IMG/VR virus record: IMGVR_UViG_3300044729_000756 | Span: 1 to 32,322 of that record | Strand: one strand, 5' to 3' | Length of the DNA stretch: 32,322 bases | Source: a virus | In this document: piece by piece, positions 1 to 32,322 of the stretch | Position numbering within the stretch: position 1 is the first letter of the stretch | Layout: each line of letters starts with the position of its first letter | The notes under the pieces: generated by a model | What the model was told of the DNA's origin: nothing | Database searches by the model: none | What the model saw: the letters and a program-made list of their open reading frames with translations, nothing else | Position numbers and translations under genes: made by a program

Positions 1-127
1 TGCCAGGCATCGCTTCCGTGGGTTTGGATGGCATGGTAGCACTCAATGAATAGGTCGGTCTTGTCAATGGCATCGTAGGCATCCCAGTCAATGCTTGCGG
101 CCACCACGGGCAGGATCCGTCGGTTAC
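1..127. repeat. Left copy of 127-bp exact terminal repeat
   Basis: Bases 1-127 are identical to 32196-32322. The repeat lies inside the coding sequence of the primase-helicase gene and the reading frame continues across the join, so the contig closes into a circle of 32,195 bp. A length of exactly 127 is a common maximal k-mer in short-read assemblers, so this is more likely assembly overlap of a circular or circularly permuted genome than a biological terminal repeat. Confidence 0.95.
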
Positions 128-1898
128 CCGTCGGGTCATTGATGACTTCTTCGTCGTTGGAAGTCCCGCAAAGGACCGCATAACGGTTTAAATCTTCGTG
201 GACCCTTCCGTAAGGCTTGCGGATGCTGAAGGTCTGCTTGGAGGATAGTTCCTTCAGTTTCTTGGCCTCCTGCTTTGATTTGCCCCCGAACTCGTCATCG
301 CAGAGGATAATCTTCTTGCACATGAGGATCTCGTCGTCCTTGCCTGCATCCAGTTTGGATTCCCCGTAATAGGACCGCAGTTCAGCAGGGAGTAGGTTCC
401 TGAAAAAGTTGGTCTTGCCGATTCCTTGATCGCCGCATAGCACCAAGATAGCAAGCGAGTAATCGCCCTGCATGCTTGCAACGACGGAGCAAAGCCACTT
501 GTAGATGCACATCTGCACAAATGCGTGTTCTTGCGTCGTGCTGGTGATCGTATTGGATAAGGCTTCAATGCACCCCTTTGGTTGGCGGTGGCCGTTCTTG
601 GCGAAGAACTCCAAAAACGGATTGTAGGTGACAACGAAATCCGAATCCACGATGGCGTTGACCAGTTGCATGTTGACCTCCTTCTTGCCAAAGTTCTCCA
701 GGCAAGCGACATAGATGTTGTTGAGGTCCGTGTCGTTAATAGGTTGGCCGTTCAGTTCAATGTTTCTGGTCACGGCGTTGCGTCGCAGGTCGTAGGATCG
801 CAGGTACGCTTTGATCTGCTTGATGGGCGAATCCTCGGTGGATGCGGTTTTCAGTTCATCGCTATCCATTTGCATGGTGTGTGCGACGATTTCATCTAAC
901 TGCTCAACATCAATCTGATCAATTTCCCGAAGGATGCGGACCGCCGTTTCGGTAGCGGAGGCGATGTCCTTGGGGCCGCCGTTGGTTCCCACCCGCATGC
1001 GGTGGGTCTTGGCGGTTGACACGATGTGGCGGGTCTGCGGGGTTTGGATTTCAACGCCCGCATTCTTAGCCAGCCACATGAAGGATGCAAAGGACACGGA
1101 GTTCTGCTTGGTTTGGCAGAGGGCTTTGTACTTCCGATCGCAGGCTTGCGGGTCGTACTTTGGGGATATGGCTGAAACCCGATGGAATAGGTCCGCACCC
1201 ATGTCCTGGTACTTTGCCGCAATGGCAAAGCCGATCTTCACCCAGTCAGCATAGGAGTTGGTAAGGTCAATGCGCTTGGCTTCAATTTGCTGGACGATAT
1301 GCTCAACATCATGCTCGCCGTGTGGATAGAATTTGGGTGCAGGAGTTGCCTTGGCTTTGGGTAGGTAGGCTTTGAATACGGCCACCTTGCGTTCGGTGTG
1401 GTAGGCTTCGGGATCAAAACTGACAAACCGCAGGCGGGACACATCCTTGCATGCAGGGTCAATAATGATGTGGTACTTATCGGCCAATCGTTTTTCCAGG
1501 GCGAAGAACGCCTCCAGGTGACGATCGGGTTCAATGCGGTAATAGGCGGCATACCCTTCCCCGCCTGTGGACTTGTGCATTGCAAGCAGAAACTCGTCAT
1601 TCAGGAGAGCCTTCATGTTTACGCCATCGTTGTCCTTGGCATCAATGTCAATGCAAAGGATCCCCGAATGGGTGTCAAGTCCATCCCTGCCCTGCTTCTT
1701 AAACTTGCCGCTGGGAGTAACGGCAGAAAGCCTGCGTTTGGTTTCGTCCGTCTTGGACGCACGGTATGCGGTTACCTCGTTGTACCAATACCCCTCACGG
1801 ATATTGGTAATGTACTCCGCAAATTCCAGGTGATCGTCGGGCGTGGTGTTCCGTGTTGCCGCTCCTTTTGCGGCCTTGAATAGTGAAATTGTTGCCAT
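1..1898 (-). CDS. Primase-helicase, 5' part (BT4734/PriCT-2/VapE type), continues across the contig join
   Basis: This is the first ~633 codons of a 744-aa replication protein whose 3' end lies at 31859-32322. Translation from ATG 1898 gives an N-terminal BT4734-like primase region with the acidic motif IDIDAKD near residue 82 and the motif DVSRLRFVSFDPE. A PriCT-2-like segment follows (DWVKIGFAIAAKY, about residue 219). A VapE/D5-type P-loop ATPase comes last, with Walker A GDQGIGKT at about 489-496 and Walker B IILCDDEFGG at about 528-538. Such proteins prime and unwind DNA at phage origins. The start sits only a few bases after a terminator U-tract, and the candidate origin repeats flank the 3' end. 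Start choice is moderately sure because no other ATG gives the full N-terminus. Confidence 0.9.
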   Translation of the reverse strand, partial: MATISLFKAAKGAATRNTTPDDHLEFAEYITNIREGYWYNEVTAYRASKTDETKRRLSAVTPSGKFKKQGRDGLDTHSGILCIDIDAKDNDGVNMKALLNDEFLLAMHKSTGGEGYAAYYRIEPDRHLEAFFALEKRLADKYHIIIDPACKDVSRLRFVSFDPEAYHTERKVAVFKAYLPKAKATPAPKFYPHGEHDVEHIVQQIEAKRIDLTNSYADWVKIGFAIAAKYQDMGADLFHRVSAISPKYDPQACDRKYKALCQTKQNSVSFASFMWLAKNAGVEIQTPQTRHIVSTAKTHRMRVGTNGGPKDIASATETAVRILREIDQIDVEQLDEIVAHTMQMDSDELKTASTEDSPIKQIKAYLRSYDLRRNAVTRNIELNGQPINDTDLNNIYVACLENFGKKEVNMQLVNAIVDSDFVVTYNPFLEFFAKNGHRQPKGCIEALSNTITSTTQEHAFVQMCIYKWLCSVVASMQGDYSLAILVLCGDQGIGKTNFFRNLLPAELRSYYGESKLDAGKDDEILMCKKIILCDDEFGGKSKQEAKKLKELSSKQTFSIRKPYGRVHEDLNRYAVLCGTSNDEEVINDPTGNRRILPVVAASIDWDAYDAIDKTDLFIECYHAIQTHGSDAW

Positions 1899-3200: not shown

Positions 3201-3439
3201 GGCATTGTGGTTGTTTGTTGGGATTGGAATAGTAGGTGGAAGGTGTGGACCTTGCGGTCCCATATTGGCCAAGGAAGATGGGCACTAAACCAAAGAATAT
3301 CACTAAGAGTTATATGATAAAATTCTCGGTTTTCTTGCAGGATAGAGATGAGGCGTTCCCCAATTTCGGGTTGGCTTTCTTTAATGTCAAGGATGGCTTT
3401 ATACACATCCGCATTGCATTGGGTTAGTAGGTTGGTCAT
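3197..3439 (-). CDS. Hypothetical early protein
   Basis: This 80-aa protein has no recognised domain. The N-terminal half is plausible and amphipathic (ILDIKESQPEIGERLISILQ). ATG 3439 follows the stop of the 186-aa gene by 3 nt and its own stop overlaps the next ATG as ATGA, which supports it being a real member of the early operon. Confidence 0.6.
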   Translation of the reverse strand: MTNLLTQCNADVYKAILDIKESQPEIGERLISILQENREFYHITLSDILWFSAHLPWPIWDRKVHTFHLLFQSQQTTTMP

Positions 3440-25639: not shown

Positions 25640-26818
25640 TTACACCACAAGATACTTACCCGAATTGCTGACGGCCAATTTGTTGAGGGCCACATATCGC
25701 AGGGCATCGCAGGCGTGGTTGTAGGAGTCAATCGGCACTCCTGTATCCTTCCCATCCTTGTCCGTGGCCCAAGTGTAACTGCGGAGTTCTTTTATCAAGT
25801 TGACCGAATCCTTGGTCACATGAAGGTTGAATCGCTTCACGATGTCAATCCCCTGCCTGACCGAATCGGGTCCCTTGGATGCGGGCTTGATATTGAATCC
25901 GAGGCGGTAGATTTCCTCGATTGACTTCGGTTCTGCTGAATCGGCCACAATCTCCCAAGCCCTTGTGATGCCAAACTCTTTTAACCGCACCGCAATATCG
26001 GAGTTGGTCAGTCCACGGTGGTAGAGCAACTCATGAATAAACAAGTCGTCACCCCTGCGGTACACGGCGACCAAGGCGGTTGGGTCGTTGCTGAACCCCC
26101 AGTCAAGGCCGTAGGCGACGAATTTCATCGTGGATGGGTCTATACCCTCAACCACCGTGTAATCCCCGTATATCGCCCCTTGTAGCGTCCCGACTTGACC
26201 GAGGCCGTACACCTTCCACCAATTCGCCCAATATGCGGAATGCTCCGCTTTGGCTCGGTTTAGTTCTATATCGTTCCGAATCGTATCAGGAAGCGCTTCG
26301 TTGTCTTGGTAGGTCAGGATGAGGAACTCCGCATCCGCTTCGGGGAGGACTTCCGTATGCGCCCAAAATTCGTGGGTGGGGTTGAAGTCAATGTAGATTT
26401 CTTGGCTGGTACGGATGGCCAACTGGTAGTACGAGTCAAAGTCGATGTTGTTCGCCTCGTTGATGTAAAGTACCTGCCTCCTTGCCCCTCGGAGGCGTGC
26501 TTCCGAATCAGCGGAAAAGAACTCAATCGTGGAACCGTTGGCGAAGTTGTACTGGAGCAGGGTCTTGTTCCACCTATCGGGAACCCATCGGTGGGTCCAT
26601 TGCATAATCTTGGCGAAGTCCTTAATCGCCCCCCGTCGCAGGTGAGGCACGGATTCGCTGACCACGGAAATCTCCGACTTGGGATGGCGAGCGGCGTGGT
26701 CAATCAGTACCGCAAGGATGCCGAAGGTTTTGCTCGCACTTGTCCCGCCTTGGATGACCTTCTTCCGAGCGGTCATCGCCCGAATCTTGCGGATAGCGGT
26801 GGTGTACTTAAAGTCCAT
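25640..26818 (-). CDS. Terminase large subunit (PBSX/Terminase_3 type)
   Basis: This ~392-aa DNA-packaging motor and nuclease has Walker A VIQGGTSASKT (GGTSASKT at 24-31) and Walker B QVLYINEANN (about 116-122). The RuvC-like nuclease acidic residues are D239 in YGLDWGFSNDPTAL, D293 in EIVADSAEPKS and D371 in SYNHACDALRY. It cuts concatemers and drives DNA through the portal. ATG 26818 (MDFKYTTAIRK) is preferred because it overlaps the small terminase by only 11 nt; ATG 26875 would add 19 residues. It is complete. Confidence 0.93.
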   Translation of the reverse strand: MDFKYTTAIRKIRAMTARKKVIQGGTSASKTFGILAVLIDHAARHPKSEISVVSESVPHLRRGAIKDFAKIMQWTHRWVPDRWNKTLLQYNFANGSTIEFFSADSEARLRGARRQVLYINEANNIDFDSYYQLAIRTSQEIYIDFNPTHEFWAHTEVLPEADAEFLILTYQDNEALPDTIRNDIELNRAKAEHSAYWANWWKVYGLGQVGTLQGAIYGDYTVVEGIDPSTMKFVAYGLDWGFSNDPTALVAVYRRGDDLFIHELLYHRGLTNSDIAVRLKEFGITRAWEIVADSAEPKSIEEIYRLGFNIKPASKGPDSVRQGIDIVKRFNLHVTKDSVNLIKELRSYTWATDKDGKDTGVPIDSYNHACDALRYVALNKLAVSNSGKYLVV

Positions 26819-27975: not shown

Positions 27976-28223
27976 CGGTTCGTCAGTTGCAGGATGACAA
28001 CGGTCAACCCCGCAGAGGCGAGGCCGTACACGGGAGCGAGAACCCAACCGCAGGTGGACCAGGTGAGCAGGACCGCAACCCAAAAGGTCAGGCAGGTGAC
28101 ACAGGAGAACGGCTTGTGCCTTGCGAACCAGGTCTTGTACCAAACCTGCGGGAGGACATGGTACTCCGCAATGGCGAGGGCCGTGAGCGAACTAATCAGC
28201 AGGGGAAATATCAGCGTGTCCAT
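27972..28223 (-). CDS. Small membrane protein with two to three segments
   Basis: This 83-aa protein from ATG 28223 has hydrophobic stretches at about 2-18 (DTLIFPLLISSLTALAI) and 40-80 (TCLTFWVAVLLTWSTCGWVL, then LASAGLTVVILQL), with a loop containing FARHKPFSCVTC. The Cys pair recalls small phage membrane proteins near sigma-like genes. A longer TTG reading from 28265 is less likely. It overlaps the sigma-like gene by 32 nt. Function is unknown; it is not next to other lysis genes. Confidence 0.6.
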   Translation of the reverse strand: MDTLIFPLLISSLTALAIAEYHVLPQVWYKTWFARHKPFSCVTCLTFWVAVLLTWSTCGWVLAPVYGLASAGLTVVILQLTNR

Positions 28224-28743
28224 GGGATTGAATGGCGGCCTTGATTTTGGCCTTGGCTTGGTCAATGGAATAGATTATAGAACGATACGGGATGCCCGTG
28301 TCACGGGACAACTTCTTCATGTTACCCGTCCGCAGGTGGAGGCGCAGTAACTCCTTGTCATAGGGGAACGCCCCGTCCTTGGCCCAAGTGTCCATCTCGG
28401 CTTCGGCAATGGCCCACAGGTCGTCCATCAGTGAATCGTACTCGGACTGTGGGATAGGGGAATCGGGGTCCAGTTCTTCCAGCAAATCGTGGTGGCGGTA
28501 CTTTTGGGCAAACTGGTTGTTCTTGCCTCGGTAGAGGTTCAGCAACAGGCGAACCACATAGAACTTGAAATACCCCTGCCCGTGGATTTGCAGAATCTTG
28601 GCGGGGTCTTTCTCCAGCAGGATTAACACGCACTCCTGCTCCAAGTCCCTCCAAAGCGGGTCGCCTCCTGTAATCGTTAGGCAGGCTTTGCGGATTTCGC
28701 CGCTTCGGTAGAGGTCCAGTATCGTGTGTTCTGCGGATGCCAT
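28192..28743 (-). CDS. Sigma-70-like (ECF-type) RNA polymerase factor, putative
   Basis: This is a 183-aa protein. The N-terminal half has a region-2-like segment (LWRDLEQECVLILLEKDPAK, YFKFYVVRLLLNLYRGKNNQ) and the C-terminus a region-4-like HTH (KKLSRDTGIPYRSIIYSIDQ, AKAKIKAAI). Its size and helix order fit ECF sigma factors or sigma-like regulators found at the head of late operons in Bacteroidota phages. It would direct host RNA polymerase to late promoters. ATG 28743 is preferred to a TTG at 28758 that lies in the terminator U-tract. It is the first gene of the packaging/virion operon. Confidence 0.6.
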   Translation of the reverse strand: MASAEHTILDLYRSGEIRKACLTITGGDPLWRDLEQECVLILLEKDPAKILQIHGQGYFKFYVVRLLLNLYRGKNNQFAQKYRHHDLLEELDPDSPIPQSEYDSLMDDLWAIAEAEMDTWAKDGAFPYDKELLRLHLRTGNMKKLSRDTGIPYRSIIYSIDQAKAKIKAAIQSHGHADISPAD

Positions 28744-28746
28744 GCA

Positions 28747-28754
28747 CAAAGATT
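28747..28754 (-). promoter_or_regulatory. Near-consensus -7 element AATCTTTG before the sigma-like gene
   Basis: Minus-strand AATCTTTG matches five of six fixed positions of TAnnTTTG and sits 3 nt before ATG 28743, immediately after a terminator U-tract. It shares its position with the exact box at 14133-14140. Confidence 0.4.
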
Positions 28755-28762
28755 GCAAAAAA

Positions 28763-28811: not shown

Positions 28812-29162
28812 CTATTCTCCGCTCGGAAGTTGCAGGGTATCAGTGATATAAGCCCCCTCAGCCGTCTGCAAGTAGTCCTGTGCGTTGTTGAAAACTTGCC
28901 TCCGAAGGTATCGCAGTTGCGGCTTGGCCTTGCAGTCGTTGTGGAAGGATTCAAGGTTTATAATTATCGTGGAGTAGTGGCGGTTCAACTCCTTCCCGAT
29001 AGCCATGAAGGTGAATAGGTATTCGTTGTATGCAATGTCGGCCACGATATTCCGAGCGATTACGCAGGGCCGTTCCCTTGACGGGGACCGCACCTGGTCG
29101 GGGGTTATGCCGAATATCATTGCGGTGGTGTCAACGAGATGATGGATGAGTGCTGGGGTCAT
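28812..29162 (-). CDS. Stand-alone DnaA domain IV-like DNA-binding protein
   Basis: This is a 116-aa protein. Residues ~14-75 follow the DnaA C-terminal domain: FGITPDQVRSPSRERPCVIA, RNIVADIAYNEY, FTFMAIGKELNRHYSTIIIN. The RHYST segment corresponds to the DnaA signature D-H-S-T that contacts the DnaA box. No AAA+ ATPase domain is present, so it should bind DNA but not remodel it as DnaA does. It could mark the phage origin or compete with host DnaA. It is the last gene of the replication operon. Confidence 0.75.
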   Translation of the reverse strand: MTPALIHHLVDTTAMIFGITPDQVRSPSRERPCVIARNIVADIAYNEYLFTFMAIGKELNRHYSTIIINLESFHNDCKAKPQLRYLRRQVFNNAQDYLQTAEGAYITDTLQLPSGE

Positions 29163-30229: not shown

Positions 30230-31663
30230 TTATTTTAGGATTGGGAAACGGTCTTTATTGTGGAAGGCCCAGCCTGGCTTCCATCCCATGTAGCGGATGA
30301 ACTCCAAGGCTTCGGCTTTGCTCTTGCATTGGTTGTGCAACACCCAGAACGGTGAAATTACTTTGGCCTTCGCTAGTTGTGCCTTTTGGTACATGCTGCT
30401 GGTCGTGGCCAACTGCATGCCCTGGGCCTTGGTCATCAGGTGCAGGTCCACCATTTCGCCCTGCTCTTGGGGCTTGCGCTGGTACTCGTAGCCGCAATGC
30501 TTGCACTTCATCGCCCCAACGGGAATAATCGCCTCGCATCCCTTGCAGTTCTTCGCCCCGCCAACGCCATCGGATTTCTTCTTGCGTTTCTTTTTGATGG
30601 ACCAGTCACGGCTTGCTTCCCAAAACCCGTGGTGGTTCACATTGTTGCCGAAGTCAAGAATCGTAAACTCCCGCTTGGTTGGGGTTACCCTGGAACCACG
30701 GCCCACCATCTGCATGAACAAAGGCAGGCTTGCGGTCGCACGGTAAAGGATTACCACCTCAATGGTTGGCTCGTCAAAGCCCGTGGTCATTAAGTCACAG
30801 TTGCAAAGGATAGCATCGGGGGTATGCTTGAACCACGCCAGCACATCGGACCGCTCCTGCTTGCCCATAATCCCATCGACATGCCTGGCGTTATGGCCTG
30901 CGTTCTGCAAAGCGGCACATACTTCCATACTGGATGCAATATTGCTCGCAAACAGGATCGCCTTCTTGCCCCTGCAATGCCTACCGTAGTTTTTGACAAC
31001 GCCGTCAAACACCCTCCGCTTGGAATAGACCGTTGCCATCTGCTGGGTATCGTAGTCATCGCCCCGCATCCCGATTCCCGACAAGTCCAAGTTTGTCCCG
31101 TAGGTGACAGGACTGGCAAGGAACCCTTGGCGTATCAGTTCCCCGACCTGCACAGGGTTGTGGAGTGCCTGGTAGAACTTGGACAGGCATTCTTGGTTCC
31201 CACGACGCAGCGGTGTTGCGGTGGCCCCGATGACCACGGCCTTGGCGGGGATGCTTGCAAGTAGCGGGTTGAAGGTCTGCTTGTGGGCTTCGTCAATGAT
31301 TACCAGGTCCATTCCCGCCATGAGATCGGCATAGTCGGCCTTGTTCTTGCGTCGGGCGTAGGTCTGGGCCATGGCAATGAAGCAGTTGCCCGAAACATCC
31401 AGTCGGGGTTTGCCCGCTTCAATGAGGGTTGGCACGATGCCGAACTGATCCAGCGCACCGTTGGATTGTTTCAGCAGTTCAACCCGATCGGTGAAGATGA
31501 TGCACCGTTTCCCCCGCTGGAGGGCCGATGCCACCATGAAGGTGAACATGACGGTCTTGCCGCTTCCCGTTGGAGCGCACAGGATGATGTGCCTCTTGCC
31601 ATCTGCGATACTTGTCCGCATTTGGTCAATGGCTTGGTTTTGGTAGGGTCGGAGCGTAGTCAC
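30230..31663 (-). CDS. SF2 DEAH helicase with C-terminal zinc ribbon (RadD-like)
   Basis: This is a 477-aa protein. It has a Q-motif-like start (LRPYQNQAIDQM), Walker A APTGSGKT (30-37), DEAH at 124-127, ATATPLR (148-153), LMTTGFDEPT (291-300) and motif VI QMVGRGSR (318-325). A zinc ribbon C373/C376/C387/C390 (NCKGCE...CKHCGYE) follows. It probably unwinds or remodels forks and recombination intermediates. The only start that keeps the first motif is GTG 31663; an in-frame TGA lies 7 nt upstream (31672-31670). That GTG is inside a copy of the origin-like decamer. Confidence 0.9.
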   Translation of the reverse strand: MTTLRPYQNQAIDQMRTSIADGKRHIILCAPTGSGKTVMFTFMVASALQRGKRCIIFTDRVELLKQSNGALDQFGIVPTLIEAGKPRLDVSGNCFIAMAQTYARRKNKADYADLMAGMDLVIIDEAHKQTFNPLLASIPAKAVVIGATATPLRRGNQECLSKFYQALHNPVQVGELIRQGFLASPVTYGTNLDLSGIGMRGDDYDTQQMATVYSKRRVFDGVVKNYGRHCRGKKAILFASNIASSMEVCAALQNAGHNARHVDGIMGKQERSDVLAWFKHTPDAILCNCDLMTTGFDEPTIEVVILYRATASLPLFMQMVGRGSRVTPTKREFTILDFGNNVNHHGFWEASRDWSIKKKRKKKSDGVGGAKNCKGCEAIIPVGAMKCKHCGYEYQRKPQEQGEMVDLHLMTKAQGMQLATTSSMYQKAQLAKAKVISPFWVLHNQCKSKAEALEFIRYMGWKPGWAFHNKDRFPILK

Positions 31664-31925
31664 TTGTAGTCACTTTGGTTTTTGAGAAGTGACTACAAAA
31701 AACGGCCTTCCTGATAGCGTAGAGGCGGTTGTAGTCAGTGTAGTCACTTGTAGTTACTTTTTTTCTTATGAGTAGATATACATTACACATGCACACATGC
31801 ACACGCTCGTATATATTGCCAATGTAAAATAGGGGTCAAAACTGACTACACTGACTACTTAAAACGGAATGCCTTGATTAGTAGGCGTTTGGGCGTAGTC
31901 ACTTCTTTCGTAATTTCTGACTACA
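31655..31925. repeat. Ten-copy decamer array TGTAGTCA[C/G]T, candidate replication origin
   Basis: On the plus strand forward copies lie at 31655, 31665, 31730, 31739, 31749 and 31894; inverted copies (AGTGACTACA type) at 31688, 31841, 31850 and 31916 (start positions). Copies differ from the consensus by zero to two bases. The array spans the 195-bp gap between primase-helicase and SF2 helicase genes and reaches into both. Such iterons next to replication genes usually bind an initiator protein. A lone core copy is at 4492-4499 in the early promoter region. Confidence 0.72.
31759..31840. other. AT-rich segment with 8-bp tandem repeat inside the decamer array
   Basis: Between the two halves of the decamer array lies an AT-rich stretch with ACACATGC repeated directly at 31785-31792 and 31793-31800, then ACAC, and nearby ATATATT and AGATATA. 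It has no coding potential on either strand that I can see and could be the DNA-unwinding element of the candidate origin. Confidence 0.5.
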
Positions 31926-32322
31926 AAATAGCATCCGAGGAAATTCCGCTCCCTTCGGCATACTTTTTGACACCCAAGCGACTTTAGGATGGCTCCAAGT
32001 TTGTGTGCGGACACATGCTGGCGGGTGCAGGTTTCAATGACATCCTTGATCTCGGAGTTGGTTAACCACTTGCCTTCGGGGTCATCGCTCCGATCGGGGA
32101 TGGTAAACAATTTGAGCAGGAGTTCTTTCTCCACGGCGGGCTGGACATTCAGTTGGGTCCGATCGTTGAGGATTGCGATCTCGGCTTTGGACAACTGCCA
32201 GGCATCGCTTCCGTGGGTTTGGATGGCATGGTAGCACTCAATGAATAGGTCGGTCTTGTCAATGGCATCGTAGGCATCCCAGTCAATGCTTGCGGCCACC
32301 ACGGGCAGGATCCGTCGGTTAC
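31859..32322 (-). CDS. Primase-helicase, 3' part (VapE-type C-terminus)
   Basis: This is the C-terminal part of the primase-helicase whose 5' part is at 1-1898; bases 32196-32322 duplicate 1-127. In the closed circle the gene has 744 codons plus stop. The segment contains the end of the ATPase domain (DWDAYDAIDKTDLFIECYHA) and a C-terminal region resembling a DNA-binding winged helix (NSEIKDVIETCTRQHVSAHK, then GAILKSLGCQKV). The last bases carry three copies of the TGTAGTCACT-type decamer (31850-31859, 31894-31903, 31916-31925), so the candidate origin array extends into the coding sequence. Confidence 0.9.
   Translation of the reverse strand, partial: NRRILPVVAASIDWDAYDAIDKTDLFIECYHAIQTHGSDAWQLSKAEIAILNDRTQLNVQPAVEKELLLKLFTIPDRSDDPEGKWLTNSEIKDVIETCTRQHVSAHKLGAILKSLGCQKVCRRERNFLGCYFVVRNYERSDYAQTPTNQGIPF
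32196..32322. repeat. Right copy of 127-bp exact terminal repeat
   Basis: Identical to bases 1-127. Only one copy should be counted in the closed genome. See the left copy for interpretation. Confidence 0.95.

Follow-up and report, generated by a model that had tools for sequence, protein, structure and literature searches.

A 271-bp array of short repeats at the 3' end of the primase-helicase gene of a complete freshwater tailed phage of about 32 kb is very probably the phage's replication origin, recognised by that same primase-helicase; its assignment as origin rests on homology, position and architecture and is well supported rather than proven. The DNA considered here, called the window, is the 32,322 nucleotides of IMG/VR record IMGVR_UViG_3300044729_000756, in which terminase large subunit, portal and tape-measure genes were identified. 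It closes into a circle of 32,195 bp through an exact terminal repeat of 127 bp (1-127 = 32196-32322), probably the assembly overlap of a circular genome. Because the window is such a closed circle, its primase gene is split across the two ends, and joining these yields a single primase-helicase of 744 amino acids with BT4734-like primase, PriCT-2 and VapE-like helicase domains. The features on which the argument turns are as follows (SF2, superfamily 2).

31655..31925, no strand: iteron array and proposed origin, its positions largely kept in relatives
31894(+) with 31916(-); 31841(-) and 31850(-) facing 31730(+), 31739(+) and 31749(+) across the AT-rich core; 31688(-) facing 31655(+) and 31665(+): the three inverted modules of the array
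31759..31840, no strand: AT-rich core and proposed unwinding element, with a CA/GT-repeat and TATATA tract
31859..32195, minus strand: 3' part of the primase-helicase gene (stop codon 31859-31861; phrog_15962, DNA primase)
1..1898, minus strand: 5' part of the same gene, with BT4734-like primase (PF08800), PriCT_2 (PF08707) and VapE-like P-loop helicase (PF05272)
31910..32077, minus strand: C-terminal winged-helix domain, the proposed iteron reader (residues about 673-728; AlphaFold, VIA-align, covariation)
31979-32008, minus strand: recognition helix, residues 696-705 (AlphaFold)
31958-31963, minus strand: wing residues V711-C712 (AlphaFold)
31894..31925, no strand: two iterons in the primase coding end (VVR and SDY codons), where tail residues vary with the iteron in relatives
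30230..31663, minus strand: SF2 helicase (ResIII/Helicase_C), its GTG start codon inside the iteron at 31655-31664
28812-29162, minus strand: DnaA-C-like protein of 116 amino acids (DnaA C-terminal domain, Pfam E 2e-8)

An initial annotation, made from the sequence alone, had described ten decamers in both orientations around an AT-rich core, and this description stands. All ten lie within 31655-31925 with at most one mismatch to TGTAGTCAST (= TGTAGTCA(C/G)T), starting at 31655, 31665, 31730, 31739, 31749 and 31894 on the plus strand and at 31688, 31841, 31850 and 31916 on the minus strand, with the head-to-tail spacing of 9-10 bp inside clusters that had been noted. The density comparison proposed at that time also favours the array: the rest of the circle (about 31.9 kb) holds just five copies, each with one mismatch, a rate at which 0.04 decamers are expected per 271 bp (Poisson P about 5e-21 for ten), and the largest cluster in 200 randomisations of the circle as first-order (dinucleotide) Markov sequences was three per 271 bp. 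The genome has only this one array, and no other 400-bp cluster comes near its score. The sites at 31841(-) and 31850(-) on one side and at 31730(+), 31739(+) and 31749(+) on the other flank the core at 31759-31840, with further sites outside. The core is 66% AT against a genome mean of 47%, and the 80-bp window from 31751 has the lowest duplex stability of the whole genome by nearest-neighbour energy. It carries the tandem 8-mer reported earlier, in place of which relatives have a (GT)n/TATATA tract, retained in most. The array does lie between the primase-helicase and SF2 genes, as first described, but is not purely intergenic, since two sites fall in the 3' coding end of the primase and one on the SF2 start codon.

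This architecture recurs among relatives. Searching IMG/VR with the primase-helicase gave 80 loci (48-100% identical), and two further queries extended the set. In all, 97 loci were reduced to 31 primase clusters at 97%, the truncated cluster L021 then being dropped and L064 added back to give 31 rows; primase identity across the relatives used is about 47-100%. In every viral-scan relative with enough downstream sequence, including close relatives with the same genes, the array lies directly 3' of the primase. Counted from the primase stop on the primase strand, the sites of the nearer lineages are found at about -65(+), -43(-), +1(+), +10(+), +102(-), +112(-), +121(-), +163(+), +186(-) and +196(-), while the most distant relatives lack both coding-region sites and differ at a few others. 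The initial annotation had anticipated conserved repeats with drifting spacers and the reverse is seen: position and orientation stay mostly constant, and the motif shifts in nearly all sites of an array together, giving iteron types GTAGTCA, ATAGTCA, TTAGTTA, GTGGTTA, ATGGTTA, GTAGTAA and GTGGTAA. Farther afield, 11 loci in bacterial genome contigs, mostly Bacteroidota by record title (L243-L253), encode primases 32-46% identical to that of the window, and 8 of the 11 have a clustered array immediately 3'. The repeats at most of these eight are unlike the window's (e.g., ATGTCGCA, ACCGTGCC, CTTACCAC, TCTTGTCA, GTAGACAG), and most of the arrays consist of direct clusters that oppose one another with AT-rich DNA in between.

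Which protein reads the iterons is indicated by what changes with them. In a full-length AlphaFold model of moderate confidence (predicted local distance difference test 75, predicted template-modelling score 0.49), complemented by a separate domain model, the C-terminus of the primase-helicase forms a winged helix, with helices at 654-662, 679-690 and 696-705 and strands at 710-713 and 719-726. It matches generic winged helices (VIA-align, Z up to 7.6 over 64-74 residues), the origin-binding domain of phage P4 (1ka8) being a weak match at rank 21, and a sequence search for a solved structure of this domain returned none at E up to 10; we claim no family for it because the fold matches are generic, with Z below 8. 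Iteron type changes seven times on the winged-helix tree (minimum six) as against ten on the tree of the remaining primase. When protein pairs at less than 12% distance were scored for differing iteron type, discordant pairs numbered 0 of 24 for the winged helix, 4 of 27 for SF2, 7 of 15 for the DnaA-C-like protein, 16 of 54 for the rest of the primase, 21 of 55 for the VRR-NUC protein and 26 of 51 for orf188, and partial Mantel tests tied the iterons to the winged helix given the rest of the primase (r=0.45, p=0.0005) but not to the DnaA-C-like protein given the winged helix (r=0.006), these counts and correlations being guides rather than strict probabilities, as genome pairs are not independent. 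L028 and L049, moreover, have identical DnaA-C-like proteins despite their differing iterons, and L009 and L061 have identical iterons although this protein is 58% different; by the pair counts and partial Mantel test, the DnaA-C-like protein was rejected as the reader. Of the two binders that the initial annotation had put forward, the primase-helicase is thus the one favoured by covariation; its broader proposal of a phage-specific initiator-binding array acting as origin remains the best explanation, with a reader other than the DnaA-C-like protein.

Individual comparisons sharpen this picture. The primases of L063 and L064 are 97.7% identical, yet 10 of their 17 substitutions over 742 residues fall within the last 45 (p=3e-9); the wing changes from VA to HN, the iterons change from TAGTCA to TGGTTA, and the valine codons of the coding-region iteron change synonymously from GTA GTC to GTG GTT, mirroring the motif. 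A small recombination event could be the source, and reader and sites changed together in either case; L068, with a TGGTTA core and a different tail, likewise has HN at those wing positions. In L049/L028 and in L034/L055, divergence is confined to an island of about 500 bp that comprises the winged helix and array alone, with immediate flanks about 92-98% identical, and L061 carries a winged helix and array of the window's type on a primase body from the other clade. Judged from sequence comparison, winged helix and array are exchanged as one cassette, as these cases indicate, and the covariation supports the C-terminal winged helix as the domain that would bind the iterons.

In the tail of the protein, the reading frame runs through the iteron at -43, whose codons give Ser-Asp-Tyr (AGTGACTAC), Ser-Asn-Tyr (AGTAACTAT) or Ser-Asn-His (AGTAACCAC), according to the lineage's iteron type, and in relatives the tails SDY, SNY and SNH pair with the local iterons GTAGTCACT, ATAGTTACT and GTGGTTACT, respectively. 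Because these residues follow the iteron of their lineage, they are best explained by selection at the DNA level.

Comparison with known systems places the window closest to the replicons of Staphylococcus aureus pathogenicity islands (SaPIs) and other phage-inducible chromosomal islands (PICIs). By sequence, the helicase part of the window's protein has one solved relative, 7pds (E 2.4e-11, profile positions 400-638), whose chains (title 'The structure of PriRep1 with dsDNA') also make up the top six fold matches. In SaPIs, the C-terminal domain of Rep recognises iterons directly 3' of the Rep gene (PMC7581432). The window shares with SaPI/PICI replicons an initiator helicase homologous to PriRep1 (so named by the PDB title), iterons flanking AT-rich DNA, and a putative origin spanning from the primase-helicase stop (31859) to the start of the next gene, as also in relatives; strong covariation and cassette exchange make its C-terminal domain a candidate reader of the iterons. 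It differs in being a complete tailed phage, equipped with virion genes of its own, rather than a satellite, so that it is PICI-like in its replicon module only, in the BT4734 type of its primase domain, and in having extra iterons in the coding end of the initiator and over the start codon of the next gene. Cch2 of the staphylococcal cassette chromosome mec (SCCmec) is likewise a helicase with a C-terminal domain linked to repeats downstream of its gene, and the isolated domain binds short direct repeats just 3' of it (PMC7581432); these, unlike the window's, are three direct repeats of 5 nt, and Cch2 belongs to the D5/Primase_Cterm group and does not itself carry the primase, which is a separate protein. 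The alpha protein of phage P4, as summarised in PMC4234260, joins primase, helicase and winged helix in one protein whose winged helix binds origin repeats, an arrangement proposed for the window as well; its primase is described there as Toprim type. ORF904 of the Sulfolobus plasmid pRN1 is, like the protein of the window, a primase, helicase and winged helix in one, with a putative origin 3' of its gene; its helicase is of superfamily 3 (PMC4234260), and that origin is a 100-bp stem-loop without iterons. A DnaA-dependent origin would be different again: as the initial annotation had stated, the motif is not a DnaA box, the sole match to the consensus TTATNCACA in the window lies at 3399 and thus outside the array, and the repeats and the DnaA-C-like protein do not change together. 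An earlier paper (PMC5862659) suggested a role in origin recognition for the C-terminal winged helices of related primase-helicases, and helicase function for VirE-type (PF05272) ATPases; for the first of these suggestions, the covariation is evidence, at the sequence level, in one family.

On this basis, we propose that the winged helix of the 744-residue protein would bind the decamers, that the two facing iteron sets would load enzyme oligomers on both sides of the AT-rich core, that the P-loop helicase would melt the core, and that the fused primase domain would lay the first primers. Some observations weigh against an origin here. The GC skew of the circle, suggested earlier as a check, has no clear minimum at the array or anywhere (detrended minimum 27695, maximum 7075) and is unusable because the main genes all lie on one strand, the minus strand. 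Three of the 11 distant bacterial loci have no array downstream. The cultured phages phi46:1, P12024S and mumin6-4 (primases 30-43% identical) show no clear array downstream, and whole-genome scans of phi46:1 and P12024S found none elsewhere, with AT-rich sequence limiting their power. The start of the SF2 gene, too, lies within the array, which may regulate that gene. The array could then be an operator through which a phage DNA-binding protein, DnaA-C-like or other, controls the SF2 helicase operon without any origin function; the SF2 start codon inside one iteron and the occupation of the gap upstream of SF2 would suit this, but the DnaA-C-like protein does not follow the iterons and its gene was not detected in several array-bearing loci, the covarying protein is a helicase's DNA-binding domain rather than a repressor, and facing iterons around the genome's least stable DNA fit an origin, so that we consider an operator improbable.

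An origin read by the primase-helicase through its iterons also has to be set against one in which the functional element is a stem-loop, as proposed for pRN1, with the repeats a side effect of its inverted arms. A 19-nt inverted repeat does surround the core (31731-31749/31840-31858), and pRN1 requires a downstream stem-loop (PMC4234260), but in many relatives, where the iteron spacing has shifted by one base, the arms match without interruption over 5-11 nt instead of 16-18 nt, while the iterons and their order are kept and sites outside any stem are conserved. With the long arm match not maintained across relatives, a stem-loop origin of the pRN1 type is very unlikely and was rejected. We give least credence to the primase-helicase reading the iterons for copy-number or replication control, or for partition, with initiation elsewhere: such control roles are possible for iteron arrays, as in P4 crr and iteron plasmids, but the genome has a single array, other 400-bp clusters are far weaker, and the array contains the least stable duplex.

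Further features accompany the proposed origin, among them one within the array:

31698..31729, minus strand: conserved non-iteron block of ACGCTATC...GGCCGTTTT type (alignment)

This block (minus strand ...ACGCTATCAGGAAGGCCGTTTTTT) can be recognised even in relatives whose iterons differ and whose primases are about 48% identical, and may be a promoter, a priming start or a host-factor site; an Rfam search of the window matched no known RNA element. The DnaA-C-like gene is exchanged freely among relatives. It adjoins the well-conserved orf188 (28192-28758, minus strand), which encodes 188 amino acids without a Pfam match and looks sigma-70-like by eye only. In the Cellulophaga phage phi46:1 (L254), the primase, SF2, VRR-NUC and DnaA-C-like genes follow in the same order, and an annotated open reading frame, gp33, occupies 26131-26439, the expected place of the array. 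Megablast of window positions 1-25000 against sequenced phages gave no DNA match.

The window phage is a complete tailed phage whose primase is of BT4734 type, and its replicon matches the known SaPI/PICI-type organisation. In 2018, PICIs were said to have in common an iteron/AT-rich/iteron origin behind the initiator, shared with 'no other known bacterial replicon' (PMC6092414); since the same organisation occurs in complete tailed phages and behind related primases of bacterial genomes, the replicon type reaches beyond satellites. The related primase-helicases in bacterial contigs suggest a large uncatalogued set of origins, and for genomes with such primases the origin becomes predictable, within a few hundred bases 3' of the gene. 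The relatives form a natural series of matched reader and site pairs, including the near-isogenic L063/L064, which opens the winged-helix recognition code and changes of origin specificity to direct test. More tentatively, a widespread family of Bacteroidota phages may have in winged helix and array an exchangeable cassette of specificity, its two parts repeatedly swapped or re-tuned together, perhaps in escaping origin-stealing satellites or cross-exclusion by co-infecting relatives, with the spread of the origin into neighbouring genes making iteron DNA dictate the tail residues of the initiator.
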